Shown: one piece after another, positions 8,675 through 25,745 of the stretch | How the letters are laid out: every line of letters starts with the position of its first letter | How positions within the stretch are numbered: position 1 is the stretch's first letter | Virus record (IMG/VR): IMGVR_UViG_3300009152_000184 | Location: 1-25,745 of that record | Direction: 5' to 3' (one strand) | DNA length: 25,745 nucleotides | DNA from: a virus | The notes under the pieces: generated by a model | What the model was told of the DNA's origin: nothing | The model's database searches: none | The model's input: only the letters and a program-made list of their open reading frames with translations | Made by a program: the position numbers and the translations under genes

Positions 8675-8789
8675 TTTTTTTGGCGGGGAAAAGAACCGTT
8701 CCAAAACTCTGCCCGATTACTGTCATTACAGAGAGGGAGAGAACAATATGTGGAGTAGTAGAGAAACAAACACATCCAAAACATGTATG

Positions 8790-8920: not shown

Positions 8921-9004
8921 GCCACCGTGCGCGAAAGCAAACCCCGCGTTTTTCGGCACTACTTGTTGAATCAAGAGTCGGAGTGCAGTAAAGTTTCAGA
9001 AATT

Positions 9005-11391: not shown

Positions 11392-11886
11392 ATGGAAAAT
11401 CTTGATGTGGTGCGCGTAAAATCTTTGATGCGTAAAGAGGTTTATGGTTCTGTTGTTGACGCTTTAAAAGTGTTGTTGGCGGATACGGATTCGGTGTATC
11501 ACGAGGCTCACATGTTTCATTGGAATGTAAAGGGTCAAGATTTCGCTCAATATCATGCTTTGTTTGAGGCGATTTATACGGATTTGCGGGAATCTATTGA
11601 TCCGATTGCGGAAAACATTTTGAAGATGGGTTCGGATGCGCCGTTTACTTTGTTGGATGTGATTTCTTTGCGCCGTGTGTCGGATGCTCGTCCTGCTTCT
11701 ACCCCGCAGGAGATGGGTGTGTCGTTGTTGGGGTTGTTGATTGATTTGTTGGTGTGTTTGAACAACGCTTTTAAGGTTGCTTCTGACGCAAATCAGCAGG
11801 GTGTAGCCAATTTTGTTGCGGAGCGTATTGACGCTACACAAAAGTGGATTTGGCAGTTGAAAGTTTCTACAGGAATCCAAAAGTAG
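11392..11886 (+). CDS. Dps-like ferritin
   Basis: 164 residues with the Dps ferroxidase set at the classical spacing: His43, His55 (+12), Asp70 (+15), Glu74 (+4), in HEAHMFHWNVKGQDFAQYH and ESIDPIAENIL. The family forms 12-mers that oxidise and store iron and shield DNA from oxidative damage; some members bind DNA. Length is typical except for an N-terminal extension with VVRVKSLMRK (6-15), shared with the next two genes. The gene sits between terminase and portal, far from any metabolic genes, suggesting the protein may enter the capsid or act during packaging. No clear ribosome site precedes ATG 11392. TAGGTT (11380-11385) could be a leaderless -10 box. Confidence 0.8.
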   Translation: MENLDVVRVKSLMRKEVYGSVVDALKVLLADTDSVYHEAHMFHWNVKGQDFAQYHALFEAIYTDLRESIDPIAENILKMGSDAPFTLLDVISLRRVSDARPASTPQEMGVSLLGLLIDLLVCLNNAFKVASDANQQGVANFVAERIDATQKWIWQLKVSTGIQK

Positions 11887-12778: not shown

Positions 12779-14020
12779 ATGTTTGATGTCAGGGCTGTTG
12801 TTCGGATAAAGACCGAGATGCGTAAGGTTTCGTTCGGCGGTGACAGGTCGGAGGCTGGTCGGTTTGCGGCGAATCAGCGTTGGAAGGATCATGTGAAAGT
12901 CGTTGACACAACCGTTGGAATTGGGTACACTGATGGTATGACAAGTGGGATGACAGATCAGGAACGACAATTGCACGAACTGGCAGTCAAAACTGACACC
13001 GAGATTGCCCGCCTTCTAGGAATCCATGCAGGGTTGCGCGGAAAGCAAGACCGAATCTTGGACAACATTCTTCGCAATTACAAATATGTCTTGCGTCCGA
13101 AAGAAGAAAACGAAAGCGCTTGGGCGTACAGAGATTATGTTGAACGCGCAATGTTTGAGCAAAAAAGGGCTTTGTCGTTTGGCTTGCGGAATCCTGAAAC
13201 CAACGCGGAGACTGTCGCGAAACTGATTGCAAACTTTCAAGACCAACCCGTAAGAGCAAACGGGACAATCCCGAATGTTGAGTATTTCATTGAGGACATG
13301 AAAGAAGGCTTGGTCAAACTTGGTGAAGTTGGTCAAGAGATAAACGCAAACAATGCACTGTTAAATCCGTTGAACAAAACTTTTGCCGAAAACGGATGGT
13401 CGCGTTTCTTCCTTGTGACAAACACAAACGGTCACATTCACTCTTCAAGAGATTGCTCTACATGCAACGACACAACACAGTTTGCGTGGATTACAACTTT
13501 GAGCGGGTTAAAAGAAAAAGATGCTGTTGAACAAGAGGGAGAAATCCTTTGCACAGTTTGCTATCCGACAGCGCCTTCGGAGTACACATCGGGTGAAAGC
13601 AAGCCGAAGCGGATCGCGCGTGAGGCTCGTGAAGCGGAAAAGAAGATTCGTGATGAAAAGAAACTTGCTAAACTGCTCACACCAACGGGCGAGGATTTGG
13701 TTGTTCGCGGGGACACTTACGAGATGCAGGATCGCCGAACAGGTTTGATGGTTCCACAAACAAAGCAGGAGCGCCTGACCACAGTGTTTGGTGGCAAAGA
13801 GTTTTTGAAGGACTACCACGATTTCGTAAATGCTGCAAAAAAGCAAACTGATCCTGCTCGCAAGGCATGGTTGACAGATGGAACGGATGGTTTGCACACA
13901 AAGGCGAACGCTGATTTGGTTGCCGAGTTGGTGGCGCAGAAAACAGGTAAAACGGTTGCTGAGGTTATGGCTAATGCGAAGAGGTTGGCTGACAAAAGCC
14001 CTACTTACGCAAATTATTAG
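12779..14020 (+). CDS. Tagged protein with phage zinc-binding motif (413 aa)
   Basis: Residues 7-15 carry VVRIKTEMR and 16-35 the shared tag KVSFGGDRSEAGRFAANQRW. A long helical region follows from about residue 58 (MTDQERQLHELAVKTDTEIA). Then comes a cysteine/histidine module, HIHSSRDCSTCNDTTQFAWI (219-238) with LCTVCYPTAP (257-266): His219, His221, Cys226, Cys229, Cys258 and Cys261. I recognise this module from many actinophage hypothetical proteins; it looks like a zinc-bound treble-clef or ribbon. The C-terminal 130 residues are charged helix. Untagged relatives, as I recall them, begin near the MTDQERQ segment. There is a candidate promoter at 12903-12931 just before it. No ribosome site precedes ATG 12779. 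Confidence 0.7.
   Translation: MFDVRAVVRIKTEMRKVSFGGDRSEAGRFAANQRWKDHVKVVDTTVGIGYTDGMTSGMTDQERQLHELAVKTDTEIARLLGIHAGLRGKQDRILDNILRNYKYVLRPKEENESAWAYRDYVERAMFEQKRALSFGLRNPETNAETVAKLIANFQDQPVRANGTIPNVEYFIEDMKEGLVKLGEVGQEINANNALLNPLNKTFAENGWSRFFLVTNTNGHIHSSRDCSTCNDTTQFAWITTLSGLKEKDAVEQEGEILCTVCYPTAPSEYTSGESKPKRIAREAREAEKKIRDEKKLAKLLTPTGEDLVVRGDTYEMQDRRTGLMVPQTKQERLTTVFGGKEFLKDYHDFVNAAKKQTDPARKAWLTDGTDGLHTKANADLVAELVAQKTGKTVAEVMANAKRLADKSPTYANY
12824..12883 (+). other. Shared tag, copy 1 (in 413-aa protein)
   Basis: Encodes KVSFGGDRSEAGRFAANQRW, residues 16-35. The peptide matches the copy in the GNAT protein at all 20 positions although the codons differ at many third positions. Confidence 0.9.
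12903..12931 (+). promoter_or_regulatory. Candidate intragenic leaderless promoter in the 413-aa gene
   Basis: TTGACA (12903-12908), 17-nt spacer, TACACT (12926-12931). Seven nt later is an in-frame ATG (12938, residue 54). The order -35, 17 nt, -10, 3 nt, GGTATGACAA is the same as at the promoter at 14025-14053. Confidence 0.45.
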
Positions 14021-14024
14021 ATAG

Positions 14025-14053
14025 TTGACACGGGGGCATTGTTGGGCTATGCT
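14025..14053 (+). promoter_or_regulatory. Promoter of the small-gene island
   Basis: TTGACA (14025-14030), 17-nt spacer, TATGCT (14048-14053). It opens the island after the 413-aa gene. An ATG at 14060 lies 7 nt past the -10 box, so a leaderless start is possible, while AAAGGAGGT (14065-14073) serves the ATG at 14078 in the same frame. Confidence 0.7.
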
Positions 14054-14077
14054 TCAGGTATGACAAAGGAGGTCATC

Positions 14078-14194
14078 ATGGAAAAGCCAGTTGAGGGAAT
14101 TGACCGTTGTTACTGCGGTTCAAAGTATTGGGACGAAAATGTTTGCCATTCGTGCGGTGAAAAGTTTGTGAAACGAGAAGAGGAGGATCAATAA
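14078..14194 (+). CDS. Small zinc-ribbon protein (38 aa)
   Basis: ATG 14078 has a near-perfect ribosome site (AAAGGAGGT) 4 nt upstream. ATG 14060, in frame, would give six more residues on a leaderless transcript. The peptide has C-x-C and C-x2-C pairs (DRCYCGSKYWDENVCHSCGE), a compact zinc-ribbon knuckle, then a charged tail. The stop overlaps the next start (TAATG). Function unknown. Confidence 0.6.
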   Translation: MEKPVEGIDRCYCGSKYWDENVCHSCGEKFVKREEEDQ

Positions 14195-14415
14195 TGGCTA
14201 ATGCTTATTGGCGAGGAATGGTTAAGGATGCAATTGGGTGTGATGATGATTACGCAGATGTTCTTTTAGAGTTTCAGTACGAGGTGTCAAACGGTTGCGA
14301 TACTTCCGAAGCAACAATAGAAGAGTTAAAAGATTTTTGGGAAATGATTGATGCTGAGTACAAAGACTTTTTGGTTGGTACGCCAATCTTCAGGAAGAAT
14401 GGAGAGGATCAATGA
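14194..14415 (+). CDS. Small acidic hypothetical protein (73 aa)
   Basis: ATG 14194 follows AGGAGG and overlaps the previous stop. The product is acidic and mostly helical (DDDYADVLLEFQYEV, then TIEELKDFWEMIDAEYKDFL). It has no recognised domain. Its stop overlaps the next ATG (ATGA, 14412-14415). Confidence 0.5.
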   Translation: MANAYWRGMVKDAIGCDDDYADVLLEFQYEVSNGCDTSEATIEELKDFWEMIDAEYKDFLVGTPIFRKNGEDQ

Positions 14416-14798
14416 GAAAGCCAATACATTATTACGAGGTGCTTCCCGATTGTCAGGACTGTCGCAAAGAAAAAGCAACCGTGTTCGCTGGTTGGGAAGG
14501 AGCAGGAGCATTACGCAGTTTTTTTTGCAAACCTTGTGCTAAAGCAGAGAGGCTTGATATCTTTTTTTATTTAAAAGAGCCAAACGAACAAAGGAGAAAA
14601 ACAATGTTGCCAAGTGAAATAGTTGATGACATCATCGCATACGAGAGTGGCGATCTGAACTTTGAGGAGGTCGTGAACCTGTTTCAAAATCTTGTTGACA
14701 CTGGTATGGCATGGTCGTTGCAGGGCGCTTACGGGCGGATGGCTACAGACTTATTGGAGGAAGGTTTGATTCAGCCGTTTCCGCGGGTGGAAAAATAA
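14412..14798 (+). CDS. Composite protein: zinc-ribbon head plus conserved phage helical domain
   Basis: 128 residues with two parts. Residues 1-64 carry CQDC (14-17) and CKPC (39-42), a zinc-ribbon. Residues 65-128 begin MLPSEIVDDIIAYESGDLNF and include WSLQGAYGRMATDLLEEGLI; I know the 'LQGxYGRxAxxLIxxG' pattern as a free-standing small phage protein. Directly before Met65 (base 14604) lies AAAGGAG (14590-14596), a full ribosome site, so the second half may also be made alone. This looks like two adjacent genes joined by loss of the first stop. Functions are unknown. Confidence 0.6.
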   Translation: MRKPIHYYEVLPDCQDCRKEKATVFAGWEGAGALRSFFCKPCAKAERLDIFFYLKEPNEQRRKTMLPSEIVDDIIAYESGDLNFEEVVNLFQNLVDTGMAWSLQGAYGRMATDLLEEGLIQPFPRVEK

Positions 14799-14801
14799 TG
14801 C

Positions 14802-14830
14802 TTGACACAGGGCTAGAAAAGGGATATGCT
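14802..14830 (+). promoter_or_regulatory. Second island promoter
   Basis: TTGACA (14802-14807), 17-nt spacer, TATGCT (14825-14830): both boxes are identical to those at 14025-14053. AAGGAGG (14838-14844) and ATG 14849 follow, so this transcript has a short leader. Confidence 0.7.
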
Positions 14831-14848
14831 CAAACCAAGGAGGTAGGG

Positions 14849-15049
14849 ATGAAAACAAAAGTAGAAATGTTAAGTCAAGAAGCATTGAGTCTTGCGGTGG
14901 CAATGCTCAAGAACGAATACAGCCAAACGCAATCATATTTTGCGGTTGATCGTATTCAAGAGATCATTAAGGAAATTGGTGGAAGCCGAACAGAGTTAGT
15001 AATGAACGCCGAAAAGTTTATCAAAGCAGAATTGGAGGGAGCAAAATGA
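14849..15049 (+). CDS. Small helical hypothetical protein (66 aa)
   Basis: ATG 14849 follows the promoter at 14802-14830 and a perfect ribosome site (AAGGAGG). The product is helical and begins MKTKVEMLSQEALSLAVAML, with the segment YFAVDRIQEIIKEIGG. No family recognised. It is coupled to the next gene by ATGA (15046-15049). Confidence 0.55.
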   Translation: MKTKVEMLSQEALSLAVAMLKNEYSQTQSYFAVDRIQEIIKEIGGSRTELVMNAEKFIKAELEGAK

Positions 15050-15513
15050 CAGTTTTAGCGGGATACCAAAAACGGGAGTACGGTTCCGAATACGAATCGG
15101 TTAAAGGCAAAACCAAAAAAGAGATTGCCAAAATCATGCGCGGGCGTTTGAAAGTGTTCGCGGGTGTTGGTGCAATACCTGAACATTGGCAGTATTCGGT
15201 TCGTGTCAACCATGGCTCATCAATTGACATCAAGATTGTGATCCCTGATGAACTGAACGCACTGTTGAATCAGTACGAGGAAAGCAAATATGCGGAGTTC
15301 GGTTCGGTGTGGTCAACCTTCGCGGTTGAACACGGGCTGGTCGGAGAATATCTTCCGTTGAAAGAAGTTGTCTTGGTACGCAACTTTGTGCAGTCGGTTC
15401 ACGACAGTTTCAACTACAACAATTCGGATTACCAAACCGATTACTTTGATGTCAACTTTTATGGTGGTGTGAGCGTCATCAGCAAAAAAAATTACGAAGC
15501 CTATTACAAATAA
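15046..15513 (+). CDS. LPD29-like domain protein (155 aa)
   Basis: The segments KKEIAKIMRGRLKVFAGVG, YSVRVNHGSSIDIKIVIPDE and FNYNNSDYQTDYFDVNFYGG resemble the large-polyvalent-protein-associated domain 29. That domain typically has 'SVRxxxGSSIxVxW' followed by a 'FNYDNSDxxTDYFxxxFY' stretch. It is common as a free-standing small protein in phages and mobile elements, with unknown function; a role in counter-defence has been suggested for polyvalent proteins in general. The start overlaps the preceding gene. Family call by remembered pattern. Confidence 0.5.
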   Translation: MTVLAGYQKREYGSEYESVKGKTKKEIAKIMRGRLKVFAGVGAIPEHWQYSVRVNHGSSIDIKIVIPDELNALLNQYEESKYAEFGSVWSTFAVEHGLVGEYLPLKEVVLVRNFVQSVHDSFNYNNSDYQTDYFDVNFYGGVSVISKKNYEAYYK

Positions 15514-15529
15514 GCCTGAAAGGGGCAAA

Positions 15530-15895
15530 ATGAAAAAAGCAATACGAATCACTACACAGGGAGACATGGTTGCCATTGATCTTTCGGTCGGGTCATTAGA
15601 AAAACTGCAAAGCGCAGTTGGCGGTTGGGTGCAAGCAATTGACCTATCCGAAACTATGTCAATGTGGTGCAACGAAGAAGGCAAAATGATGAGCCTTCCA
15701 CATAACCCGTTTGGGCAAGCATTTTGGGAGAGGCACTTTGGTCGCACCGATTACATCGTTGGTGACATTGTTATTACTGGCGGAACTGATGACGAAGGCG
15801 ACACCATTTCTTTGATGGATCAACAAATTGCTTTTATCACCGAACTCGTAGAAGAAGTAAAAGATTTTATCTCGCCTCGCATCGTAGTGATGTAA
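15530..15895 (+). CDS. DUF3846-type protein
   Basis: 121 residues; ribosome site GAAAGGGG before ATG 15530. SLEKLQSAVGGWVQAIDL, then MWCNEEGKMMSLPHNPFGQA, then YIVGDIVITGGTDDEGDTIS follow the DUF3846 pattern ('LQxxVGGxIExVxL ... MWxNEEGKxxxLPxN ... DxIVGxVVITGxxDDEG'). The domain is widespread in phages and plasmids with unknown function. The C-terminus is an acidic helix (ITELVEEVKDF). Confidence 0.75.
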   Translation: MKKAIRITTQGDMVAIDLSVGSLEKLQSAVGGWVQAIDLSETMSMWCNEEGKMMSLPHNPFGQAFWERHFGRTDYIVGDIVITGGTDDEGDTISLMDQQIAFITELVEEVKDFISPRIVVM

Positions 15896-15923
15896 TTAAG
15901 CAACCAACAAACAAGGAGAAAAC

Positions 15924-16154
15924 ATGAGTAAGCAGTTAGAAAAACAGATTCAGGAACAGCGGGAAAGTTTGTCAGCAAACATTTTGAAACTGAGATCAAA
16001 AAATCAGTTATCTCAACAGGCACTTGCAAACCTCGCGGGCGTGGATCGCAAAACGGTGAACCGTATTGAGTGCGGACATTTCAGTCCGTCTTTGGATACC
16101 CTCGTGCGATTGGGTGAGGCGTTCAAAATCACAACAGCAAAGTTGTTGGGCTAA
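15924..16154 (+). CDS. XRE-family HTH repressor-like protein
   Basis: 76 residues with ribosome site AAGGAG before ATG 15924. The XRE/Cro HTH is clear: LRSKNQLSQQALANLAGVDR, then KTVNRIECGHFSPSLDTLVR and LGEAFKITTAKLLG. It has a short charged N-terminal helix but no C-terminal oligomerisation or peptidase domain, so it is Cro-like in size. It could regulate the two TTGACA-N17-TATGCT promoters upstream, although I see no obvious repeated operator. The stop overlaps the next ATG (TAATG). Confidence 0.8.
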   Translation: MSKQLEKQIQEQRESLSANILKLRSKNQLSQQALANLAGVDRKTVNRIECGHFSPSLDTLVRLGEAFKITTAKLLG

Positions 16155-16246
16155 TGCAAGAACAGACACGGTTCCAAAAAGCAAAAAGTCGTATTCGTTG
16201 GTGGTGGTTTTTTAATGTCTCAACACGCTTTAGGAGGGGAACATGA
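16154..16246 (+). CDS. Possible small basic peptide (30 aa)
   Basis: ATG 16154 overlaps the repressor stop (TAATG) and its own stop overlaps the next ATG (ATGA). The product is basic with a Trp/Phe cluster (KAKSRIRWWWFFNVSTRFRR). The double coupling supports translation, but composition is unusual and there is no independent evidence. Confidence 0.3.
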   Translation: MQEQTRFQKAKSRIRWWWFFNVSTRFRRGT

Positions 16247-16401
16247 AAGAAACATATTCGTTTATGGTTACGGTCGCTAAACGCGATGATCTTGAGCATC
16301 CCGCAACAGCAAAAGATGCTGCCTCGTTGATTGGCTATCTGTTGGAGAAGGATGCCTATCTTGATGTGATTGATGTTCGGGGGGTTGTCAATGCCTACTA
16401 A
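16243..16401 (+). CDS. Small hypothetical protein (52 aa)
   Basis: ATG 16243 has a perfect ribosome site (AGGAGGGG). The product (MKETYSFMVTVAKRDDLEHP, then KDAASLIGYLLEKDAYLDVI) has a beta-helix-beta pattern. Not recognised. It overlaps the following ATG at 16391 by 11 nt. Confidence 0.55.
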   Translation: MKETYSFMVTVAKRDDLEHPATAKDAASLIGYLLEKDAYLDVIDVRGVVNAY

Positions 16402-16675
16402 TCCGACAGTGGACGAGGTTGAGTTCGGTGCGTGTGTTTGTGTTGTTCACATGCCGAACGCAAACATTGATCGTTTCTACGGTCCTTTTGCATGCGAATC
16501 TGATGCACGGGATTGGGCGCGTTCGCAGAGTGGTCATCCTCATGTGACGATTGGTGTGATGCCTTTGCGGAGGACGGACATTGACCGAACTTATGACGAT
16601 TTTTTTAATCCTTTGTTGGATTGGGATTCTAAGGACTTTTGGGAAGTCAAGGTCAGAGATGTACCAAATGACTGA
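16391..16675 (+). CDS. Small hypothetical protein (94 aa)
   Basis: Starts at ATG 16391 within the end of the preceding gene. An in-frame GTG-region extension to 16370 would give seven more residues. Segments VCVVHMPNANIDRFYGPFAC, then ESDARDWARSQSG and VTIGVMPLRR, resemble small phage proteins of alternating strands and helices that act in unknown ways. Its stop overlaps the next ATG by 8 nt. Confidence 0.5.
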   Translation: MPTNPTVDEVEFGACVCVVHMPNANIDRFYGPFACESDARDWARSQSGHPHVTIGVMPLRRTDIDRTYDDFFNPLLDWDSKDFWEVKVRDVPND

Positions 16676-16775
16676 TCCAGCGCGTCCTAGAGGCTCCTGT
16701 GGCTGTCTCACGCCTGTTTTGGCGCGTAGGTTGAATCCGCCTATTTGCGGGGATCGCGGGGAAGAGGAAGATTAA
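16668..16775 (+). CDS. Possible small Cys-containing peptide (35 aa)
   Basis: ATG 16668 overlaps the preceding stop by 8 nt. The peptide contains C-x-C (RPRGSCGCLTP), a later Cys (PPICGD) and an acidic tail. No ribosome site of note. Supported by coupling only. Confidence 0.35.
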   Translation: MTDPARPRGSCGCLTPVLARRLNPPICGDRGEEED

Positions 16776-16779
16776 AGAC

Positions 16780-17025
16780 TTGCATTGGGGCGTTTCTTGC
16801 CCTACGATGTGGGTGGAGGGACGAGGAGAAGCCCTCCAGTTAGAAGGGTCAGTGAAAAAAGAGTTCTTCAAATTGGGTGTTCAGGAGGGTGCGAAAGCGC
16901 TCCCCAAAGCCCAACTCAAAAAGGAAATCAAAGCCATCTTCCAATACCAGCAACTTGCTTGGTTTACGAAGCCTGAAGTTTTGGCTTGGAGGTTGGAGGC
17001 GTTGGAAGAACTACTAGTCGCTTAA
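16780..17025 (+). CDS. Small hypothetical protein (81 aa)
   Basis: The best start is TTG 16780, with GAGGAAG about 9 nt upstream. ATG 16807 is an alternative without a ribosome site. The product is a helical, Lys/Ala/Glu-rich protein (VKKEFFKLGVQEGAKALPKA, then LKKEIKAIFQYQQLAWFTK). No family recognised. Confidence 0.45.
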   Translation: MHWGVSCPTMWVEGRGEALQLEGSVKKEFFKLGVQEGAKALPKAQLKKEIKAIFQYQQLAWFTKPEVLAWRLEALEELLVA

Positions 17026-17040
17026 CGGGAAAGGAACGGG

Positions 17041-17178
17041 ATGAAAAAAGTGTTCGTGTTGCTTTTAGGGGTTCTGATGGTCGGGATAATCCCCGTGAAG
17101 TTTCCTCAGACCCGTGGCAACCTGAAGCCAGTCGCAGTTTTAGCCGAAATCCAACAAGAGAAAGGTGAACAGAAATGA
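17041..17178 (+). CDS. Small membrane-anchored or secreted peptide (45 aa)
   Basis: ATG 17041 with AAAGGAA upstream. The N-terminus MKKVFVLLLGVLMVGIIPVK is a classic basic-plus-hydrophobic signal or anchor segment. The remaining 25 residues are polar. No lipobox or clear cleavage site. The stop overlaps the next ATG (ATGA). Confidence 0.5.
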   Translation: MKKVFVLLLGVLMVGIIPVKFPQTRGNLKPVAVLAEIQQEKGEQK

Positions 17179-17450
17179 CACAGACAGTTCAATCAAAATA
17201 TCCAAATATCAACATTGAGTTAGTCGGACAAGACGGTAACGCATATTCAATCCTTGCAAGATGTACCACCGCGTTAAAGCGGGAAGGTCTGCGCGATCAG
17301 ATAGAAGCGTTTCGTGAAGAAGCAACAAGGAGTGACTACGACAACCTTCTTCGGACGGTCATAAGGTGGTTTTCGGTTGACGAAAAAATTGATGAAAACG
17401 AAGCCGAGTGTTCGTGGTGTTACGAAGCCCACGAAGATTGCGAGTGTTAA
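17175..17450 (+). CDS. Conserved small phage protein with C-terminal cysteine cluster (91 aa)
   Basis: The N-terminal part, YPNINIELVGQDGNAYSILA then ALKREGLRDQIEAFREEATR and SDYDNLLRTVIRWF, matches a small protein I remember from many actinobacterial phages and plasmids ('VELVGxDGNAFxILGxVxxALRxAG ... ATxGDYDxLLxxxxxW'). Its function is unknown. The tail ECSWCYEAHEDCEC adds C-x2-C and C-x-C pairs, which could bind zinc. Coupled to the upstream gene by ATGA. Confidence 0.65.
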   Translation: MTQTVQSKYPNINIELVGQDGNAYSILARCTTALKREGLRDQIEAFREEATRSDYDNLLRTVIRWFSVDEKIDENEAECSWCYEAHEDCEC

Positions 17451-17452
17451 CA

Positions 17453-17722
17453 ATGGAGTTCGTTGATGAGTCAAAAATAGTTGGCTACTACCCGAAAAAT
17501 AAGGTGTTGGCTGAGTTCATTGCCGAAGTCAAATTGAACCCGAACCGATGGTGCGTTTTGCGACAAACCGAAGATTCAAGAGACTCGTATGTGCGGTTTT
17601 CAACTTCACGCCATCATTACCGAAAGCGCTTGCCTGAACTTGATTGGCAGATCGCCCGCGAAACAGAAAACGAAGTTGTGATTATCAAACTGGTAGCACG
17701 GTTCACACCATCAGAGTTCTGA
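17453..17722 (+). CDS. Small basic hypothetical protein (89 aa)
   Basis: ATG 17453 is 2 nt after the preceding stop, so translation is probably coupled. The product contains VLAEFIAEVKLNPNRWCVLR and later YVRFSTSRHHYRKRLPELDW. It is a compact basic alpha/beta protein of unknown family. Confidence 0.5.
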   Translation: MEFVDESKIVGYYPKNKVLAEFIAEVKLNPNRWCVLRQTEDSRDSYVRFSTSRHHYRKRLPELDWQIARETENEVVIIKLVARFTPSEF

Positions 17723-17758
17723 CGATTAACTAATCCCCTGTAACCGTCCGACAGGATG

Positions 17759-17783
17759 CGCCCTCACCGCTATGGTGGGGGCG
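17759..17783 (+). other. Strong 10-bp stem-loop overlapping a start region
   Basis: CGCCCTCACC (17759-17768), loop GCTAT, GGTGGGGGCG (17774-17783), with nine Watson-Crick pairs and one G-T pair. It has no T-run. It covers the G-rich region just before GTG 17783 and lies 3 nt after ATG 17756, so it may limit translation of the following small gene. Confidence 0.5.
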
Positions 17784-17944
17784 TGTCTGAATCTGAGGAA
17801 GCGTGGTCAGCGTTGAAGAGTGCATCAGTTGCGCTCAACGAAATGTTTGTGACCATGGTTGATTCGGGGTTCACCGAAGATCAAGCGTTGAAATTGGTGG
17901 CTCACCTCATTGAAGGCATGACATTTTCAAAAGAAGATGACTGA
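17783..17944 (+). CDS. Small acidic helical protein (53 aa)
   Basis: Start is uncertain: GTG 17783 (used) or ATG 17756, which adds nine residues read through the hairpin. The body is helical (SALKSASVALNEMFVTMVDS, then GFTEDQALKLVAHLIEGM) with an acidic end. Small proteins of this type often precede actinophage portal genes. Function unknown. Confidence 0.45.
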   Translation: MSESEEAWSALKSASVALNEMFVTMVDSGFTEDQALKLVAHLIEGMTFSKEDD

Positions 17945-17954
17945 ACCCCAATAG

Positions 17955-17980
17955 AGGGCATATAGACCGCCCTTTACTTT
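17955..17980 (+). terminator. Weak terminator before the portal gene
   Basis: AGGGC (17955-17959), 9-nt loop, GCCCT (17969-17973), then TTACTTT. Short stem and interrupted T-run. It falls between the island's last gene and the portal -10 box, a sensible place to stop island transcripts. Confidence 0.4.
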
Positions 17981-17992
17981 AGAATGGCGACA
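17980..17992 (+). promoter_or_regulatory. Leaderless promoter -10 box for the portal gene
   Basis: TAGAAT (17980-17985, 5 of 6 consensus) ends 7 nt before ATG 17993, and no ribosome site is present. No good -35 is visible. If real, it excludes ATG 17984 as the start on this transcript. Confidence 0.45.
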
Positions 17993-19423
17993 ATGGCACC
18001 TCAACCCGACTTTCAAGAAATTGGTTCGTCAGGACTTCAACGAACTTCAGGGTTCGTCATTGATGACTTCATTGCCAATCTCCGTGGCGTTCAGGGCGCT
18101 CGCGTTTGGCGCGAAATGTCCGACAATGATGCTGTTGTGGGCGCAATGCTGTTCGCTATTGAGCGACTGATTCTCGGTATTGACTGGAAAGTGGAGCCGT
18201 ACACCAAAAGCGACAAAGACAACATCAAAAAAGCGGATCAAAAGAACGCAGATTTTGTTCAAGAGTGCATGGATGACATGTCGGAAACTTGGTCGGCAAT
18301 GCTGTCACAAGTTCTTTCTTTCCTCGTGTTCGGATTTGCATACACCGAGATTGTGTATAAGAAACGCAAAACAAGCGACACGAAAGACCCTACGCGCCGT
18401 TCAAAGTTTTCGGACGGGAAGATTGGTTGGCGTAAAATTGCTTTGCGTTCACAGGAAACTTTGTGGGATTGGCAGTTTGACGAAAATGGTTCTATCACGG
18501 GCATGCGTCAATCCGATCCTTCGGTTCCTAAAGGTGTTGTCTTTATTCCGATTGAGAAATCGTTGCTGTTTCGCACGGTAACTGCGCGTAACAACCCTGA
18601 AGGTCGCTCAATTTTGCGTAACGCTTACCGCCCGTGGTTCTTCAAAAAGACGATTGAGGAAATTGAGGCTGTCGGTATTGAGCGTGACTTGGCAGGTTTG
18701 CCTGTCGCCTATGTGCCACCATCAATGCTTTCCTCCAACGCCACTACAGCCGAAGTGTCGGCTCGTAACGCTATGCAGGACTTGATCCGTGGCATTAAGC
18801 GAAACGAAAACGAAGGCATCTTGTTCCCGCTTGCTTATGACGAACAGGGTCGCGAACTGTACAAGTTGACTTTGCTTTCATCGGGTGGTACCCGCAACTT
18901 CAACACTGACGCGATCATTGCCCGTTACGATCAGCGGATCGCCATGGTGGTTTTGGCAGACTTCATTCTGTTAGGACATGAGAAGGTCGGCTCGTTCGCG
19001 TTGGGCGCTTCAAAGATTGACTTGTTTACTTCAGCGATTCAGCAGATCGCCGATTCCATTGCAGATGTGTTTAATACTCATGCGATTCCTCGCCTGTTCA
19101 AATTGAACGGTATGGACGCGACAACTTGCCCGAAGATTAAAGCAGGCGAAATCACTCATGTTGACTTGGGTGTCCTCGGCGACTTCATCTCCAAGATGTC
19201 TGCGGCAGGTGCGATGGCTCCTGACATTGACATGGACAACTATCTACGCGGTTTGGCTAACTTGCCGAAACGAAGCGAAGAGGCGGGCGTTCCACCGATG
19301 GGTATGGGGCAGATGCCTCCCACTGGCGCACCTGCACCTGCGGGCGCTCCTGCACCTGAACAACCTGCTCCTGCGCCGAACCTCTTTGAGTCAATCGGCG
19401 GCAAAACTAATGCGAAACCGTAA
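17993..19423 (+). CDS. Portal protein (Mu gp29 / DUF935-like)
   Basis: 476 residues from ATG 17993 (479 from ATG 17984). VWREMSDNDAVVGAMLFAIE, LILGIDWKVEPYTK and FLVFGFAYTEIVYKK follow the N-terminal wing of DUF935-type portals. WDWQFDENGSITGMRQ, PIEKSLLFRTVTARNNPEGR and SILRNAYRPWFFKK form the characteristic stem/clip region. The portal ring is the DNA channel at the head vertex and docks the terminase. The C-terminus is a Pro/Ala-rich tail (GAPAPAGAPAPEQPAPAP). It is followed 2 nt later by the head morphogenesis gene, as in Mu-like head modules. Confidence 0.85.
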   Translation: MAPQPDFQEIGSSGLQRTSGFVIDDFIANLRGVQGARVWREMSDNDAVVGAMLFAIERLILGIDWKVEPYTKSDKDNIKKADQKNADFVQECMDDMSETWSAMLSQVLSFLVFGFAYTEIVYKKRKTSDTKDPTRRSKFSDGKIGWRKIALRSQETLWDWQFDENGSITGMRQSDPSVPKGVVFIPIEKSLLFRTVTARNNPEGRSILRNAYRPWFFKKTIEEIEAVGIERDLAGLPVAYVPPSMLSSNATTAEVSARNAMQDLIRGIKRNENEGILFPLAYDEQGRELYKLTLLSSGGTRNFNTDAIIARYDQRIAMVVLADFILLGHEKVGSFALGASKIDLFTSAIQQIADSIADVFNTHAIPRLFKLNGMDATTCPKIKAGEITHVDLGVLGDFISKMSAAGAMAPDIDMDNYLRGLANLPKRSEEAGVPPMGMGQMPPTGAPAPAGAPAPEQPAPAPNLFESIGGKTNAKP

Positions 19424-19425
19424 TC

Positions 19426-20469
19426 ATGCCGTTTGTTACGCGCACGAGTTCGCCGAAGCATGTTCATTCGGGCGCTTCTAACCACGATATTGAACTTGAG
19501 GATTTAGAAAAAGCAAGCGGTGAGATCACTGATCCTGCGTTACTGGCGGACATTACCGCTTTGCAAGATTTGTATCAAAGCGCAATCACAGGTATGTCGG
19601 CAGCGGTCACGCGGGCGCAACAGTTATTGGCACAACAGAACCGAACTGGAACACTGGACTTGCGACTGTTTCAAGAAGTCTTTGCCACACAAGCGGTGGA
19701 GGCGCTACGGCAGTCTTTAAGAGATGTGAGCGATGGAACTGCGGAACAGGTGCTTTTGGAGGCTAGGAGAGCCATACAGAGGCTTCCTGCGGGCATTTAC
19801 GGCAAGATGTCCTTTGATGCTAAAGACCCTCGTGCTATCGCATGGGCTGAGGAACGAGCAGGGACAATGATTGCTCAGATTCAGGCTGAGGCGTTGACGG
19901 CTGTTCGCGGGATCATTTCGCGGGTGTTGTCTAGCGGTGGCGGTGTGCCTCGCGCTGCGAAAGAGATTCAGCGGGTGGTTGGTTTGCATGATCGTTGGCA
20001 ACGAGCGGTGGATAACTATTACAACAAAGAGGTGGGAAGGTTGAGTCGCACCATGAGTGTTGATTCGGCGATTCAGAAAGCGGAAGAAGCATCGTTGAAG
20101 TATCGGGATCAGTTGATTAGGGCGCGTTCGTTGAACATTGCTCGTACAGAGATTTTGGCTTCACAGAACATTGGGACTTTGTTGGGCTGGTATCAGGCTT
20201 CGGATCAAGGGTTTTTGGATTTAACTGACGCGAGGAAAGAGTGGGTTGTCGGTCCTGATGGTTGGAAGGGTGTTGAGGTTTGCGCGATTTGTATGGATTT
20301 GGCTGGTCAGCAGGTTCCTGTAACGGCGGTGTTTTCTAATGGTGAGATTTGTCCTCCAGCGCATCCGTCTTGCCGTTGTTCTATGTCGTTGTTGACTTTG
20401 GTTTCGTTTGAGGAGCAACAGGCTTCTCGTATTGCGGATGAAGCGTTGTTGAATGATGCTGGTTTCTGA
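19426..20469 (+). CDS. Head morphogenesis protein (Mu F / SPP1 gp7-like)
   Basis: 347 residues. The middle is long helices (AVTRAQQLLAQQNRTGTLDL and others). Near the C-terminus is the signature of the Mu F-like domain: VCAICMDLAGQQVPV followed by CPPAHPSCRCSMSLL, a Cys/His cluster typical of minor head proteins. Together with RSLNIARTEILASQNIGT ('ARTE' motif) it identifies the family, which assists capsid assembly and is a few copies per virion. It starts 2 nt after the portal stop, without a clear ribosome site. Its stop overlaps the next ATG. Codon use becomes strongly G/T-rich toward its end. Confidence 0.85.
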   Translation: MPFVTRTSSPKHVHSGASNHDIELEDLEKASGEITDPALLADITALQDLYQSAITGMSAAVTRAQQLLAQQNRTGTLDLRLFQEVFATQAVEALRQSLRDVSDGTAEQVLLEARRAIQRLPAGIYGKMSFDAKDPRAIAWAEERAGTMIAQIQAEALTAVRGIISRVLSSGGGVPRAAKEIQRVVGLHDRWQRAVDNYYNKEVGRLSRTMSVDSAIQKAEEASLKYRDQLIRARSLNIARTEILASQNIGTLLGWYQASDQGFLDLTDARKEWVVGPDGWKGVEVCAICMDLAGQQVPVTAVFSNGEICPPAHPSCRCSMSLLTLVSFEEQQASRIADEALLNDAGF

Positions 20470-21917
20470 TGATTGTTGATGCGAAGTGGGAAGCAACGAT
20501 TCGTAAGTCTGTTCGCGATCAAGTAGCGAAGTTCAATCCTTACCATGACGAGTTGGGAAGGTTCACCACAGGCGGTGTGTCATCCGCGGTAGCAGACTCA
20601 ATCATCGCCCGTGTCAAAGCAAACGGCGGGCTGTCAGTTAAGATTCTGACTGGCGAAGAACCAACTGACGGCTTTATGGTGGCTCAACAAGGTCAAAACT
20701 TAGAAGTCAAAGAAGAAGATTTCTTTGATGCGAAGAAGGGTAAAGCCGCGTTAAGCGCCTATTTGAAAGCAAAAAAATTGGTGTTCGGCAAAGATCAGTA
20801 TTTAGGACTTTGGTGGAACAAAGATAAAAAAGAAATCAGTTTGGATGTAGTTGATAGGATCAAAACTCGTAGTAAGGCGACCAAGGCTGGTCGGGAAAGA
20901 AACCAACAGGCTATTTGGGATGTCAAAAATCAGGAAGAAATCAACACAGGAGGAACAGGTGACAGAACAACCGAACCAACCCTTGCATCTAGCAAAACCT
21001 CCAAAGCCTTTGGCGGAGATGACAGATCAGGAGATAGAGGAGTTCGCATCCCAAGTTTGGGAAAGATTCGTACAGGAAAACAACGGGTAGTTCAGCAAAC
21101 TATTCGCGCAAAAGTTTTCAAAGTTTCGTTTGGTGGTGATCGGAGCGAAGCAGGTAGATACGCGGCAAACATGCGATGGCAGGGTCGTTCAGAGGCTATA
21201 AGTCCTAGAGCAAAAGACATTTCAAAAGAGTTAGGGCTTTTTTTTGGTAAAGACCCTAATGAATACTTGAAGTCGGAAGGTTACAAAGAAATACAGAAAA
21301 GAGAAGGTGAAAATCAAACCGACTATTTTTCTGACACTAGATTAGAAATAATTGCGGACAAACAAGGTTTTTCGGGTTTACCAAAGGTGGTTTCATCTGA
21401 GGAAATGACACGATTAGAAAAAGAAGGTTGGACTATTGCTTATCGGGGGATTAGCACCATATTTATTGCTACCCCAAACAGACAAACGACCTTGAACGCC
21501 GAAGATTTAGCGGAGGAGTTTAGAACAGGCAAGTATTTTGGGGGTCATGGGGTTCACGGCAACGGAACATATTTTGCGACAGACAAAGAAGTGGCTCAAA
21601 CTTTTGCCGAAAATGAGAGCGAAACAAACGGAACGGTAATCAAAGTGGCGATTCCGCCCAATGTGTTGATGGAACGAAACGAATTAAAAAATGAGGTAAT
21701 AAAACATCAGGATAGTTTCAAAAAACCTTCAAGAGCGTTTTTTGGTGACGATGACATAGGAAGAGTGTTAGCCGCTAAAGGAGTGAGGGGGGCAAGAATG
21801 AACTTGAGACTTTCGGGGTCATTTGTTGCCGATGTTGGGGCAGCGATTGAATCTAATGTAATTTTAATTTTTGATAGGTCTATGCTTGCTGTTGAAGAAA
21901 GCAAAAAAACAAAATGA
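20469..21917 (+). CDS. Composite protein: HDE-GRF domain + shared tag + ADP-ribosyltransferase
   Basis: 482 residues in three parts. Residues 1-165: KFNPYHDELGRFTTGG (21-36), then DGFMVAQQGQNLEV, and AGRERNQQAIWDVKNQEEIN with TGGTG; I know this as a complete small phage protein. Residues 218-237: shared tag KVSFGGDRSEAGRYAANMRW. C-terminal ADP-ribosyltransferase: WTIAYRGIST (Arg326), then GGHGVHGNGTYFATDKEVAQ, a pattern of phage head-associated ARTs. These enzymes move ADP-ribose from NAD+ onto host proteins. Residues 164-207 are oddly Ser/Thr/Gly/Arg-rich and overlap a plausible gene in another frame (20959-21090). This suggests two genes joined across an old junction. Coupled to the neighbours by overlaps. 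Confidence 0.7.
   Translation: MIVDAKWEATIRKSVRDQVAKFNPYHDELGRFTTGGVSSAVADSIIARVKANGGLSVKILTGEEPTDGFMVAQQGQNLEVKEEDFFDAKKGKAALSAYLKAKKLVFGKDQYLGLWWNKDKKEISLDVVDRIKTRSKATKAGRERNQQAIWDVKNQEEINTGGTGDRTTEPTLASSKTSKAFGGDDRSGDRGVRIPSLGKIRTGKQRVVQQTIRAKVFKVSFGGDRSEAGRYAANMRWQGRSEAISPRAKDISKELGLFFGKDPNEYLKSEGYKEIQKREGENQTDYFSDTRLEIIADKQGFSGLPKVVSSEEMTRLEKEGWTIAYRGISTIFIATPNRQTTLNAEDLAEEFRTGKYFGGHGVHGNGTYFATDKEVAQTFAENESETNGTVIKVAIPPNVLMERNELKNEVIKHQDSFKKPSRAFFGDDDIGRVLAAKGVRGARMNLRLSGSFVADVGAAIESNVILIFDRSMLAVEESKKTK
20959..21090 (+). CDS. Overlapping small acidic protein (43 aa) in another frame
   Basis: GTG 20959 has a perfect ribosome site (AGGAGG, 20948-20953) 5 nt upstream. The product reads naturally (LHLAKPPKPLAEMTDQEIEE, then FASQVWERFV), whereas the long frame through the same DNA is low in hydrophobic residues. 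It probably was, or is, a free-standing gene that follows the HDE-GRF domain. The 132-nt overlap with the composite ART frame is nearly complete. Confidence 0.5.
   Translation: MTEQPNQPLHLAKPPKPLAEMTDQEIEEFASQVWERFVQENNG
21120..21179 (+). other. Shared tag, copy 2 (in first ART)
   Basis: Encodes KVSFGGDRSEAGRYAANMRW at residues 218-237, directly after the joined region and about 90 residues ahead of the ART catalytic core. Confidence 0.9.
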
Positions 21918-23107
21918 CACCTACTCAGTCACGGCAATTAGCATCTCTTGTACAAACTTTTTCACCAAAACAAAAGGCTGATTTCTATTATTTCACGATG
22001 GTTTTAGACCAAGACCCGTTGGCTTATCTCTCTGACGATGTTCAAATGTTGAAAGTTTCTTTTGGTGGGGACAGATCAGAAGCAGGCAGATATGCCGCAA
22101 ATCAAAGATGGCAGGGTCAAAAAAAGTTGGAAACGAGTGTTGGTTTTACTGGCACCGATTTGGATTCAGACGGAGAAAAGTATTCAGAAGATGCTTCAAG
22201 TTCTGAACTTAACAAAATGTTTCAATCGGACATTTTTTTTGCCTTAGAGCAATCCTCTGAGTCTGAACCAGCGCAATTGTTAAAAAAAATTGCTGTTAAA
22301 GGAATTATTGATGGTATGACGGATGTTTCTGAAGAAGATGTTTCGGAGGCTTGTTTAGCGTTATTTGGTACCGCAAGCAATCTCCCAAATCATCTCGCTG
22401 TAATTGTGGATAAACAAAGATTTGTTCAACATTTTGTGGATCAATGGGCTGGTTCTTCAAACGATAGTCAACGAGACAGTCTTTTAGTTCAACGAGCAGT
22501 TGAAAAAGTTTTTGGGTTAGTTGGTGTTTTGGAAACACAAGAAATGGAATCCGAAGATAGTTTTGCCGCGGAAGAACCCGATTTAGAAGCAAAAGAATTA
22601 TTAAAAAATCCCGCTGTAGAAAAAGTTTTAACTAGTTTTCTTAGAGCGCAATATGCCAACACTCAATCATATTTCAAGAGTAAAGGAATTAAAACAGTAG
22701 AGGTTTTGCGAGGCGCGGCAATGTTATCCGTAAGGGAACAATTAAATAGTTACAATCAAGATCATCAAAGAAGCAAAACTTTAGATAATGATGTTCCAAA
22801 TGAAGGAAATATGGAGGTTTGGTCGCCGCTTCGTCCACTTTCATCTTGGTCAATTAGCGGTAGTGTCGCCGATGATTTTGCGGGTGTGCAATCTCATTAC
22901 ATTCAACCCGAAGGTGTAGTTTTTAGAACACGGGTTCCAGTTTCAAGGGTTTTTGCGACACCTTTTACGGGAATTGGCTGCGCTAATGAATATGAAATGG
23001 TTTTGTTGGGCGGAAGAATAGACGCTAAGGCGGGGACTTCTTCGGGTGCAACCGAAAGCGCTGTCAACTATACGGCTTTGTATGGCGAAAAGGATCAATA
23101 CTCGTGA
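21914..23107 (+). CDS. Tagged R-S-E ADP-ribosyltransferase
   Basis: 397 residues. The shared tag is at 47-66 (KVSFGGDRSEAGRYAANQRW). The C-terminal ART domain shows all three conserved elements: QSYFKSKGIKTVEVLRG (Arg266), the STS-like SSWSISGSVADDF (310-322) and the E-x-E motif NEYEMVLLGG (Glu359, Glu361). E-x-E with R and S marks the arginine-modifying (CT-like H-Y-E excluded) R-S-E group. The central part (about 80-235) is acidic. The enzyme would use NAD+ to modify host proteins, as T4 Alt and ModA do with RNA polymerase. It overlaps the first ART by 4 nt and the GNAT gene by 4 nt. It is visibly richer in A+T than the head genes, suggesting later acquisition. Confidence 0.75.
   Translation: MTPTQSRQLASLVQTFSPKQKADFYYFTMVLDQDPLAYLSDDVQMLKVSFGGDRSEAGRYAANQRWQGQKKLETSVGFTGTDLDSDGEKYSEDASSSELNKMFQSDIFFALEQSSESEPAQLLKKIAVKGIIDGMTDVSEEDVSEACLALFGTASNLPNHLAVIVDKQRFVQHFVDQWAGSSNDSQRDSLLVQRAVEKVFGLVGVLETQEMESEDSFAAEEPDLEAKELLKNPAVEKVLTSFLRAQYANTQSYFKSKGIKTVEVLRGAAMLSVREQLNSYNQDHQRSKTLDNDVPNEGNMEVWSPLRPLSSWSISGSVADDFAGVQSHYIQPEGVVFRTRVPVSRVFATPFTGIGCANEYEMVLLGGRIDAKAGTSSGATESAVNYTALYGEKDQYS
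22052..22111 (+). other. Shared tag, copy 3 (in second ART)
   Basis: Encodes KVSFGGDRSEAGRYAANQRW at residues 47-66, with A/T-rich codons unlike those of copy 1. Confidence 0.9.
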
Positions 23108-24162
23108 GACAAAGAATTGTTATGGATAACTCACTTCGCAATAGCGATTGGGTTAAGGCATCTAGTTTTGATTTTCCTTCGGTTAAGAATCTTGCCGATT
23201 TTGAACGGGCAATGTTGATTCCTTCTGAGCCCCTTGCTCGGCGCACGAAGTTGGCTTCGTATGCGGGGATGGCTTGGTTTCCTGTTGCTCCTGACGATAT
23301 TCGCCATGCGATTATAGAGGCTGCGCGTCAACAGGATTTGGTAAAAATGTTGAAATCTAAAGGTTTGTCTGCGCTTGAGAAGTCCAAGTTGAAAGATGAT
23401 GTGTTTATGTTGTTGGTTGCCGAAAAACTTTCTAAGGTTTCGTTTGGTGGTGACAGATCGGAAGCAGGTCGGTTCGCCGCTAATCAACGCTGGAAAAACC
23501 ATCAGAAAAAAGAAGATGACAAAAAGGGTCAAAGCAATAAAAGCCCTGTTGCTCAATCCATTCTTGAAGCCAACGAATCGCTCAAAAAAGCGGGTTTGAC
23601 TGTTCGTGTGATGGAGATAACAAAAAGAGATACAGAATTATCACAAAGATTAACAAACTCAATTGAAAAATCAGCCACAATAATACGCAAAAGCAAAAAC
23701 TTTGCCCCCTTTACCCAAGAGAGATGGTTTTCTGAGGCGGTCAACTTAATGAAGAGTAGCGTCTATTTTGAGGACACAGAATACAACTACCGTAATCCTG
23801 ATCCCGTTGGTCAGTTCATTATTTTGGTTGAAAAAGGCAAAGCCATAGTTGGTGCTATGAGATTTGCTCCTGATTCTTTCCTTGAAGGATTCAAACATTT
23901 ACAAGAAGGAGAAATACCTTCTGCTGGCTCATTGAGGGTTGTTAAGGGTGTTGGTACCGCAATGTTTGGTGAGGCACTAAAAATAGCGGCACGAACAGGA
24001 ACGGGAAAAATAAAAATAGAAGCACTAAACACCGCAGAATCATTTTGGAAATCTCAGGGTTTTAAGCGAGTCAAAAATGCTAAACTTAAAGAAAACTCTA
24101 CTTACGACATGATAATAGACGCAGATACCGTGCAAACACTTGTTAAGGAGATTTCATCGTGA
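23104..24162 (+). CDS. Tagged GNAT acetyltransferase
   Basis: 352 residues. The start is GTG 23104, coupled to the ART stop (GTGA) with AAAAGGA upstream; ATG 23122 is an alternative. Residues 1-110 are an unrecognised N-terminal region. The shared tag lies at 111-130. The C-terminal domain fits the GNAT fold: IILVEKGKAIVGAMRFAP (strands), SLRVVKGVGTAMFGEALKIA (275-295, acetyl-CoA binding), and NTAESFWKSQGFKRVKN near the end. GNATs acetylate amines on proteins or small molecules using acetyl-CoA; the substrate is unknown. Phage GNATs sometimes modify host proteins. It ends in a coupled start for a 31-aa peptide. Confidence 0.7.
   Translation: MRQRIVMDNSLRNSDWVKASSFDFPSVKNLADFERAMLIPSEPLARRTKLASYAGMAWFPVAPDDIRHAIIEAARQQDLVKMLKSKGLSALEKSKLKDDVFMLLVAEKLSKVSFGGDRSEAGRFAANQRWKNHQKKEDDKKGQSNKSPVAQSILEANESLKKAGLTVRVMEITKRDTELSQRLTNSIEKSATIIRKSKNFAPFTQERWFSEAVNLMKSSVYFEDTEYNYRNPDPVGQFIILVEKGKAIVGAMRFAPDSFLEGFKHLQEGEIPSAGSLRVVKGVGTAMFGEALKIAARTGTGKIKIEALNTAESFWKSQGFKRVKNAKLKENSTYDMIIDADTVQTLVKEISS
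23434..23493 (+). other. Shared tag, copy 4 (in GNAT protein)
   Basis: Encodes KVSFGGDRSEAGRFAANQRW at residues 111-130, in the middle of the protein rather than at its N-terminus. Confidence 0.9.
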
Positions 24163-24301: not shown

Positions 24302-25264
24302 GTGCAAACAACAGCCTCAAAAGTACGATTGGATGTTTTGAAAAGGCTTAATACTGTACAAAAGTTTAATCCAAACCATGACGAATTGGGTAGATTCTCA
24401 ACTGGTTCAAGCGCTTCATCAAGGTATGTAGAAGGTTTCGGTCACATTCAGCGTTCCGCAAGCGGAGAATGGACGGACTCTCAGGGAGTCTCTCTTGCTC
24501 CTCGCGTCACCATGGCGATTAGGATGCGCGACCAACTTGCTTTGCGCGACAAAGCCATTGCCGAAGGAACTGCGCCTGAACCACCATCACCGTTCAAAGT
24601 TCAAGAGGTTGTTGACCGTACTGCTAAAGGTTTGAAGTCGGAGATTCCTGCACCATTGTTAAAAACGGTTTTAGACAACATGGCTGATCGGACAGATGAT
24701 CCAAACATTGCAAATATCAGGCTTGATGTGCCATGGGTAAAGTTGGGTCGTGAAAGTCTTGGCTTAACAAGGGATCAAGCACCGCAAGTACCAACGAACC
24801 TAAAACAAAAGTTTTTGTCTGACATGGAGACTCGTGGAGTAAAGATTTACCGTGAGGAACTTTCCGCGTCACCATTGACACCAACCCAAACACAGATTTC
24901 GGGTCGCGCTGCGGGGCAGATTATGCGCCGTATGGAAGCAGGAAAAGATCGTTTTGCAGACAATTTTGATGCTGGAGCGGTAATTGTTTCTGCTGACAAC
25001 TATGTGATTGATGGTCATCATAGGTGGGCTGGTCAGGTTGCTTCTGAGATGGCTGGTTCTACCTCGCGCATGAGGGCTTTGCGTGTTGGTTTGAACGCTA
25101 AAGAATTGATTGGTGTTATTAGGGCTTGGGATGTGGCAAACAATGTTGAAACTTTGGCTATGGGTGAGGATCGTGGTTATTCGCCTGCAACAAAGATGGC
25201 GATGTTGTACAAGGCGATTGATGTAGCAGTTTTTGATGCGAAAGATAAGGTTTGGTGTGCCTGA
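24302..25264 (+). CDS. ParB-like protein with N-terminal HDE-GRF motif
   Basis: 320 residues from GTG 24302. The N-terminus has KVRLDVLKRLNTVQ then KFNPNHDELGRFSTG, the same motif as in the first ART. The C-terminal half carries the ParB/Srx-like signature VIVSADNYVIDGHHRWAGQV, a form of the 'DGHHRWxA' nucleotide-binding motif often seen in phage head-module proteins. A nuclease or NTP-binding role is plausible but unproven. Upstream, GHIQRSASGEWTDSQG recalls small phage structural repeats. The stop lies just inside the next reading frame. It sits between effector-like genes and the prohead protease. Confidence 0.7.
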   Translation: MQTTASKVRLDVLKRLNTVQKFNPNHDELGRFSTGSSASSRYVEGFGHIQRSASGEWTDSQGVSLAPRVTMAIRMRDQLALRDKAIAEGTAPEPPSPFKVQEVVDRTAKGLKSEIPAPLLKTVLDNMADRTDDPNIANIRLDVPWVKLGRESLGLTRDQAPQVPTNLKQKFLSDMETRGVKIYREELSASPLTPTQTQISGRAAGQIMRRMEAGKDRFADNFDAGAVIVSADNYVIDGHHRWAGQVASEMAGSTSRMRALRVGLNAKELIGVIRAWDVANNVETLAMGEDRGYSPATKMAMLYKAIDVAVFDAKDKVWCA

Positions 25265-25745
25265 GCAAATGACCGAAGAAGCAACTTTGCAAAATGTTCA
25301 GGATTGGATGGACGGCAAGATCAGTTGGAATGATTTACCGCAACATTGCAAGGACGCAATTGATGAAGCAATTTTAGAGTTGTCTGAAAGCGAACCTGAA
25401 GAAGAACCTGTTGTCACTGAGGAGCCTTTCACCGCAGAAATTGTAAAGCAGGCTCAACCGATTGAAGAGATGTTACATAAGGCTGATAACGAGCATCGTT
25501 TCACGCTTGGACCTTGGTACATCCCGAATCAGTATGACGCTCATGGTGAGTGGACTGACGCTGATGAGTTGCAGAAGTCGTTGTGGGAATATGTGCGGAG
25601 CGGGGATCGTGGGATTCGGTTGCAACACAACAAAGATATTGTGGCTGGCGAATGGTTGGAAGCGATGTCGTTTCCTGTTCCTGTGACCATTGGTATGTCT
25701 AAGGACGCGACTTCTAAGCAGGTTTCTTATCCTGCTGGAACAGTG
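25257..25745 (+). CDS. XkdF-type prohead protease (3' end outside window)
   Basis: 163 residues seen. Start GTG 25257 (AAGG 6 nt upstream, overlapping the previous stop); ATG 25269 is an alternative. After an acidic N-terminal region (SESEPEEEPVVTEEPF), the segment RFTLGPWYIPNQYDAHGEWT, then DADELQKSLWEYVRSGDRGI and RLQHNKDIVAGEWLEAMSFP, follows the XkdF/putative phage serine protease family. These proteases trim scaffold and head proteins during capsid maturation. Its place downstream of portal and head morphogenesis genes is standard. The window ends before the catalytic domain is complete. Confidence 0.8.
   Translation, partial: MPEQMTEEATLQNVQDWMDGKISWNDLPQHCKDAIDEAILELSESEPEEEPVVTEEPFTAEIVKQAQPIEEMLHKADNEHRFTLGPWYIPNQYDAHGEWTDADELQKSLWEYVRSGDRGIRLQHNKDIVAGEWLEAMSFPVPVTIGMSKDATSKQVSYPAGTV

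Follow-up and report, generated by a model that had tools for sequence, protein, structure and literature searches.

Targeting and processing peptides of phage head proteins are already known, as are polyvalent effectors. In phage T4, a capsid-targeting sequence (CTS) routes cargo into the prohead, the same compartment in which the gp21 protease is active (PMC9958956). In phage SPN3US, N-terminal propeptides of 20-254 amino acids (aa) are cleaved from head proteins by the protease gp245, which also sheds a C-terminal propeptide of its own (PMC10052503), and in P1 an N-terminal fragment of DarA is removed by the prohead protease Pro (PMC12810830). Polyvalent proteins and MuF-effector fusions are presented, in the cited passages of two papers, as late-gene, head-linked, multidomain proteins that are predicted to be packaged and injected (PMC5512222, PMC5576092). 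Here we describe a peptide of about 25 residues, tag A, which is found in four unrelated proteins encoded by the viral IMG/VR record IMGVR_UViG_3300009152_000184 (the window analysed here is the entire record, 25,745 bases) and in many related viral contigs, and a second peptide, tag B, with similar habits.

The arrangements in which the tag occurs, leader-tag-cargo and protease-tag-tail, mirror the N-terminal propeptides and the protease C-terminal propeptide of the SPN3US and P1 systems (PMC10052503, PMC12810830). The SPN3US cut site is a short A-X-E, however, whereas tag A is a long block without an obligatory E and accompanies a protease of the XkdF (S78_2) type. Like the T4 CTS, it is a short peptide common to different (in its case probable) proteins of the head (PMC9958956), but the CTS is about 10 aa long and N-terminal, while the tag is about 25 aa long, internal, repeated within polypeptides, and present also on the protease itself and on dozens of effector types. 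As in polyvalent proteins, ADP-ribosyltransferase (ART), nuclease, ParB-like and zincin-like domains are encoded in head-linked genes (PMC5512222, PMC5576092); unlike there, the Pfam polyvalent families (ART-PolyVal, LPD) matched here only below cutoff, and the cited passages describe domains and mention no peptide shared at the junctions of unrelated effectors. A text search of 5.39 million open papers did not find the exact tag peptides, and within that literature tag A appears to be previously undescribed; what is new here is a tag combining this length, internal position and repetition with such a range of carriers.

Tag A in the window and in related viruses

Tag A occurs four times on the + strand of the window: at 12824..12883 (KVSFGGDRSEAGRFAANQRW) in a zinc-motif protein (residues 16-35 of the open reading frame, ORF, starting at 12779), at 21120..21179 (KVSFGGDRSEAGRYAANMRW) in the ART-like protein ART1 (residues 218-237 of ORF 20469), at 22052..22111 (KVSFGGDRSEAGRYAANQRW) in ART2 (residues 47-66 of ORF 21914), and at 23434..23493 (again KVSFGGDRSEAGRFAANQRW) in a GNAT protein (residues 111-130 of ORF 23104). 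All four in-frame copies lie exactly where the initial annotation of this DNA had placed them. Written as a degenerate DNA pattern, the core of the tag gives exactly four sites in the window and none in 100 dinucleotide shuffles. The initial annotation also held that the peptide is kept constant while third codon positions vary, and that the copies are not recent DNA duplications. Both statements stand: in pairwise comparison, the copies differ at 0-2 of 20 residues and at 9-15 of 20 third codon positions, and their 60-nucleotide flanks are unrelated (23-42% identity). Because third codon positions differ widely while the residues barely change, selection acts on the peptide. It had been described as a 20-mer; the peptide is as described, and its length needs correcting, the conserved block being nearer 25 residues with a preferred frame of K...W[KQ][GN]HxK.

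IMG/VR was scanned with three degenerate patterns, and the more than 100 DNA stretches returned were filtered for the core. Together, 50 profile-searched contigs and other related uncultured viral contigs (core-filtered) contain 222 copies of tag A in 180 carrier proteins; all 50 of the related uncultured viral contigs that were searched whole have profile matches, up to 14 per contig, and several of the tag A contigs are near-identical (pairs or trios). The full tag was not found in GTDB genomes (whole-GTDB scan, with the GGD-variant pattern only), where seven pattern matches lacking the RW end were judged to be chance, and it was not found in plasmids; it is thus not a peptide found mainly in cellular proteins. 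Among cultured phages, the window 23-mer had no match at E<=10, and one match to the tag A consensus (E=8) was taken as chance. A PDB search with tag A returned a single, chance-level match. In the window carriers, the tag region is free of Pfam matches, and the same search gave no match there to the KGG/YciG-type or SPEERSEIARKAAxARW motifs.

Relative to the serine of RS, the conserved block spans about -8 to +16, and conservation stops sharply on both sides. The search pattern fully or mostly determined columns 0, 2-4, 6-7 and 10-11; the columns free of it are K, F, G/A, D/S, R, E/A, N/E/Q, K/Q, G/N and H. The AlphaFold2 model of ART2 has a folded leader (residues 1-31) and a folded cargo (78-378), with a low-confidence linker in which the tag forms one helix (predicted local distance difference test, pLDDT, of 38-51 for the tag block and mostly 80-96 for the cargo). 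As the helix lies outside the cargo fold of this model, the idea that the tag is an integral part of one common domain was rejected. A model of XkdF with its tag was too poor for use (mean pLDDT 51.7).

Tag similarity is higher within phages than between them. Identity is 65% between tags of the same phage on unrelated cargo, 60% between tags of other phages on homologous cargo, and 52% between tags of other phages on unrelated cargo; the within-phage excess was reached by 0 of 200 label permutations. A phage-encoded reader of the tag would be the simpler cause of this likeness.

Junctions, modules and the head gene region

By BLAST linkage, the segments downstream of the tags fall into about 38 unrelated families, and the earlier view of a peptide portable between unrelated proteins holds. 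Each of the four window cargoes has a family of its own, in which homology begins after the tag and whose other members were likewise found behind tags (the zinc-motif family has eight members, every one behind a tag). One and the same cargo family may occur stand-alone, first or later in a chain, and always directly behind a tag. Tagged modules with Pfam matches include ADPrib_exo_Tox, DUF3626, GNAT, DUF6321, Zeta_toxin, DUF5872, DRAT, ART, HNH and Peptidase_M90, i.e. effector-type enzymatic domains in head-linked genes, as is typical of polyvalent or virion-injected effectors.

In every case the tag has a leader or domain upstream of it and a module downstream, and it is never terminal: complete ORFs have at least 106 aa after the last tag, and the part before the tag is a leader, 8 to >100 aa long, or consists of whole domains. 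This internal position differs from the N-terminal position on the cargo of a T4-type CTS, and agrees with that of a prohead-protease site between a removable leader or propeptide and a mature domain. The leaders upstream of the tag (L120-L159) belong to a few recurring short families (PW..VVVR....VVG.H; TP.QSRQ....FSP...FYY; VRIK..MRK), which suggests a small set of head-address domains.

Chains of units contain up to three copies of tag A (five by profile in one ORF of L062). A 1204-aa ORF (L006:6710-10324) is built as XkdF-tag-x-tag-DUF6321/DUF5872-tag-zeta toxin kinase, with a tag at each joint. In a 2276-aa ORF (L086:5136-11960, contig G035), MuF is followed by four tag-like peptides, some of them degenerate (weak profile scores).

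Maps of 40 regions follow a single plan: portal, MuF, tagged ORFs, XkdF with its tag, and further tagged ORFs. In 29/29 maps that continue past MuF, the gene that follows carries the tag (one is a MuF fusion). In 24 of 27 contigs the XkdF ORF has the tag C-terminal to the catalytic domain, 12 of them within about 10 residues; of the remaining three, that of G036 is truncated where the contig stops, that of G027 has a tag-like remnant at its end and that of G035 has none. Since there are near-identical contigs among the maps, these MuF and XkdF counts overstate independence. Across 50 tag records, many of which are fragments, XkdF was found in 28 (window included), MuF in 33 and the portal in 31, and the prohead protease is encoded in the same head operon as the tagged proteins. 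This search for attached domains and gene setting, which the initial annotation had called for, substantiates its link between the tag and the packaging/head region. The Arthrobacter phages Kovu, Laroye and Ottawa and the Microbacterium phage ValentiniPuff have a portal, MuF and the same XkdF protease and are tag-free; these cultured relatives have no tagged cargo between portal, MuF and XkdF, and their protease stops soon after its domain.

Judging from sequence, and within the collections searched, the tag is confined to phages, stands before many unrelated modules and is concentrated in the portal-MuF-XkdF region. The tagged proteins are very probably head or virion cargo.

Tag B and the carriers of the window

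A second peptide, tag B (KFNPxHDExGRF[TA][TS]; window form KFNPxHDELGRF), was found at at least 117 viral loci. Two copies on the + strand of the window match the tag-B profile: KFNPYHDELGRFTTGG at 20523..20576 in ART1, upstream of tag A, and KFNPNHDELGRFSTG at 24356..24415 in a ParB-like protein. Its habits are like those of tag A: it occurs in MuF fusions and follows XkdF or S78 protease domains. Up to six copies occur in one polypeptide (a 2597-aa MuF-containing ORF). In MW202897, tag B is present twice on the prohead protease, once directly behind the protease region, and also on a C-terminal extension of the portal. It is likewise carried by the portal of a Nitrososphaera provirus. In FR725450.1 (L277), a thaumarchaeal provirus, tag B lies near the portal C-terminus (5638-5697), and the start of a Rel/Spo-like gene overlaps the portal end.

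In ART1, tag B and then tag A precede successive domains, so the two tags look interchangeable. Comparison of their profiles gave a weak common E-x-GR-[FY] core (probability 16%), and because of this weakness we do not claim homology of tags A and B. The earlier account of the tags was correct for tag A and had missed tag B and the tag on the prohead protease.

The window is ordered as terminase region, Mu-type portal (17984..19423, +; phrog_113, from Pfam/PHROG matches), MuF minor head protein (19426..20469, +) and the first part of a prohead protease of the XkdF type (Peptidase_S78_2; 25233..25745, +), which ends at the contig end and whose relatives have tag A behind the domain. The nearest named relatives of the portal are those of Arthrobacter phages (54-56% identity). 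A WhiB gene (2375-2809) indicates an actinobacterial host; the hosts of tag A viruses are bacteria, probably actinobacteria.

The zinc-motif carrier (12779..14020, +) consists of a leader (MFDVRAVVRIKTEM), tag A and a zinc-motif domain (phrog_15500/phrog_2433). ART1 (20469..21917, +) has tag B, a domain of about 170 aa (phrog_17808), tag A and an ART-like domain, and ART2 (21914..23107, +) has a helical leader (1-31), tag A and an ADP-ribosyltransferase-like domain. Both had been labelled ADP-ribosyltransferases, and neither label comes with a Pfam match above cutoff. For ART2 the label is backed by an ART-type signature (RG / SSWS / ExE) in the family alignment and by weak PDB fold matches in which ADP-ribosyltransferases rank first; for ART1 it rests on a sub-threshold ART-PolyVal match. 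The GNAT carrier (23104..24162, +; phrog_1758) has a leader of about 110 aa, tag A and a GNAT acetyltransferase-like domain (sub-threshold Acetyltransf_10, E=0.0028). A ParB-nuclease-like carrier (24302..25264, +; weak ParBc_2, phrog_2859) has tag B only.

The leader VVRIKTEMRK (12797..12826, +) abuts the first copy of tag A and is shared, in similar form, by two untagged neighbours (VVRVKSLMRK at 11407-11436 and IVRIKTLMRL at 11928-11957); similar leaders occur in related phages. The first of these stands at the N-terminus of a ferritin-like (Dps-type) protein encoded at 11392-11886, directly after the terminase (Pfam Ferritin, E=1e-13). Such an N-terminus is possibly a second, untagged head-cargo leader. 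The terminase ORF (9363-11294) has a low-complexity insert with repeated QTLTPQGF-like units, and a CA-rich repetitive stretch lies near 8680-8990.

Proposed function, alternatives and meaning

The role that we propose for the peptide is that of a junction tag on virion cargo, freed by a phage head factor that would most likely be the prohead protease, a reading whose chances we consider evenly balanced; that the prohead protease itself cuts the tag falls slightly short of an even chance. Cargo genes would be laid out as a leader or head domain, the tag and an effector module, in a single unit or in a chain of units. Tagged proteins would enter the prohead, held by their leader, MuF, portal or protease parts, where the phage-encoded factor would recognise the tag and cut at or beside it. 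The cut would separate the effector from its leader or chain and rid the protease of its own tail. Loose ADP-ribosyltransferases, acetyltransferases, zeta-type kinases and nucleases would then be present in the capsid and be injected along with the DNA.

The initial annotation had offered a capsid address signal and a prohead-protease site as alternatives. Its head association is upheld, and the two alternatives do not stand level, as placement at joints favours a junction or processing role over a pure address. As an address, the tag would bind the scaffold, portal, MuF or capsid inner surface and bring the protein into the prohead uncut, and the same head-region context, the long and strongly conserved basic helix, the likeness of tags within a phage and the tagging of the protease, which also needs to enter the prohead, would all be expected. 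We consider this unlikely, since one tag per polypeptide would suffice for an address, whereas up to three copies of tag A (five by profile) or six of tag B are found, and the tag is never N- or C-terminal. Multiple tags are also present in chains that already hold MuF; with tags at the joints even in chains that hold MuF or the protease, a processing site is expected rather than a simple address. A structural or ejection linker, i.e. a flexible-helix-flexible hinge for unfolding and threading through portal and tail with no specific partner, would fit the ART2 model, where one helix is embedded in a low-confidence linker, and the Gly/Ser/Pro/Lys-rich stretches after the tag, but is rather improbable, as S, A, G, R, A, A, R and W hardly vary in unrelated contexts, which is far more conservation than a linker needs, and tags are more alike within than between phages.

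The peptide is net basic and presumably resembles the KGG/YciG-type and RSEIARKAAxARW bacterial motifs, so that as a basic helix on packaged DNA it could retain effectors in the head. Such a genome-binding motif is highly improbable: Pfam and PDB gave it no support beyond chance level, and it leaves the placement behind the protease domain and at every junction unexplained. The shuffling of modules between contigs with the tag at the joint could also reflect a DNA-level homology block for module swapping, the peptide being functionless. This recombination-site idea was rejected on the codon data and is barely credible, since the window copies vary widely at third codon positions and codon identity exceeds the codon-usage expectation only slightly; what is conserved is the peptide.

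Several observations weigh against the proposed junction tag. All tag A phages found are uncultured, the search pattern determined the core columns of the logo, and the set includes several near-identical contigs. With 20-25 residues and at least eight invariant positions, the block is long for a protease site and resembles a docking helix just as much. In S[EA]AGR, the alternation of E and A speaks against a T4/SPN3US-like x-x-E site, and we think such cleavage at the tag unlikely. XkdF is present also in phages without the tag and therefore has other substrates. Within-phage codon identity is 0.41 against 0.33 expected, so that copying inside a phage could partly explain the likeness of its tags; as this excess over codon usage is slight, copying accounts for at most part of it. 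Finally, G030 and G037 have a second tagged cluster about 20-28 kb from the portal. These distant clusters are at 34.9-36.7 kb in G030 and 3.7-5.7 kb in G037; one of their tagged genes (L091:5521-6456) matches the head-morphogenesis family phrog_7625.

Taking the two peptides together, we tentatively suggest that tailed phages may have a general cut-and-ship code, in which at least two junction peptide families (KxSFGGDRSxAGRYAAxxRW and KFNPxHDExGRF) would make portal, MuF, protease and stand-alone genes polyprotein carriers, from which the prohead protease would yield free host-modifying enzymes in the capsid. If this is true, junction peptides would be a signature of virion-delivered effectors in sequence data, a 25-residue string marking proteins that are carried in the phage head and injected. 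Hundreds of unannotated phage ORFs would become testable early effectors (ADP-ribosyltransferases, kinases, acetyltransferases and nucleases), and both the identity of injected phage proteins and their route into the capsid would be testable by motif search plus virion mass spectrometry. The tag would also offer a simple handle to load foreign proteins into phage heads, and tailed phages would be seen to use a polyprotein-like logic.

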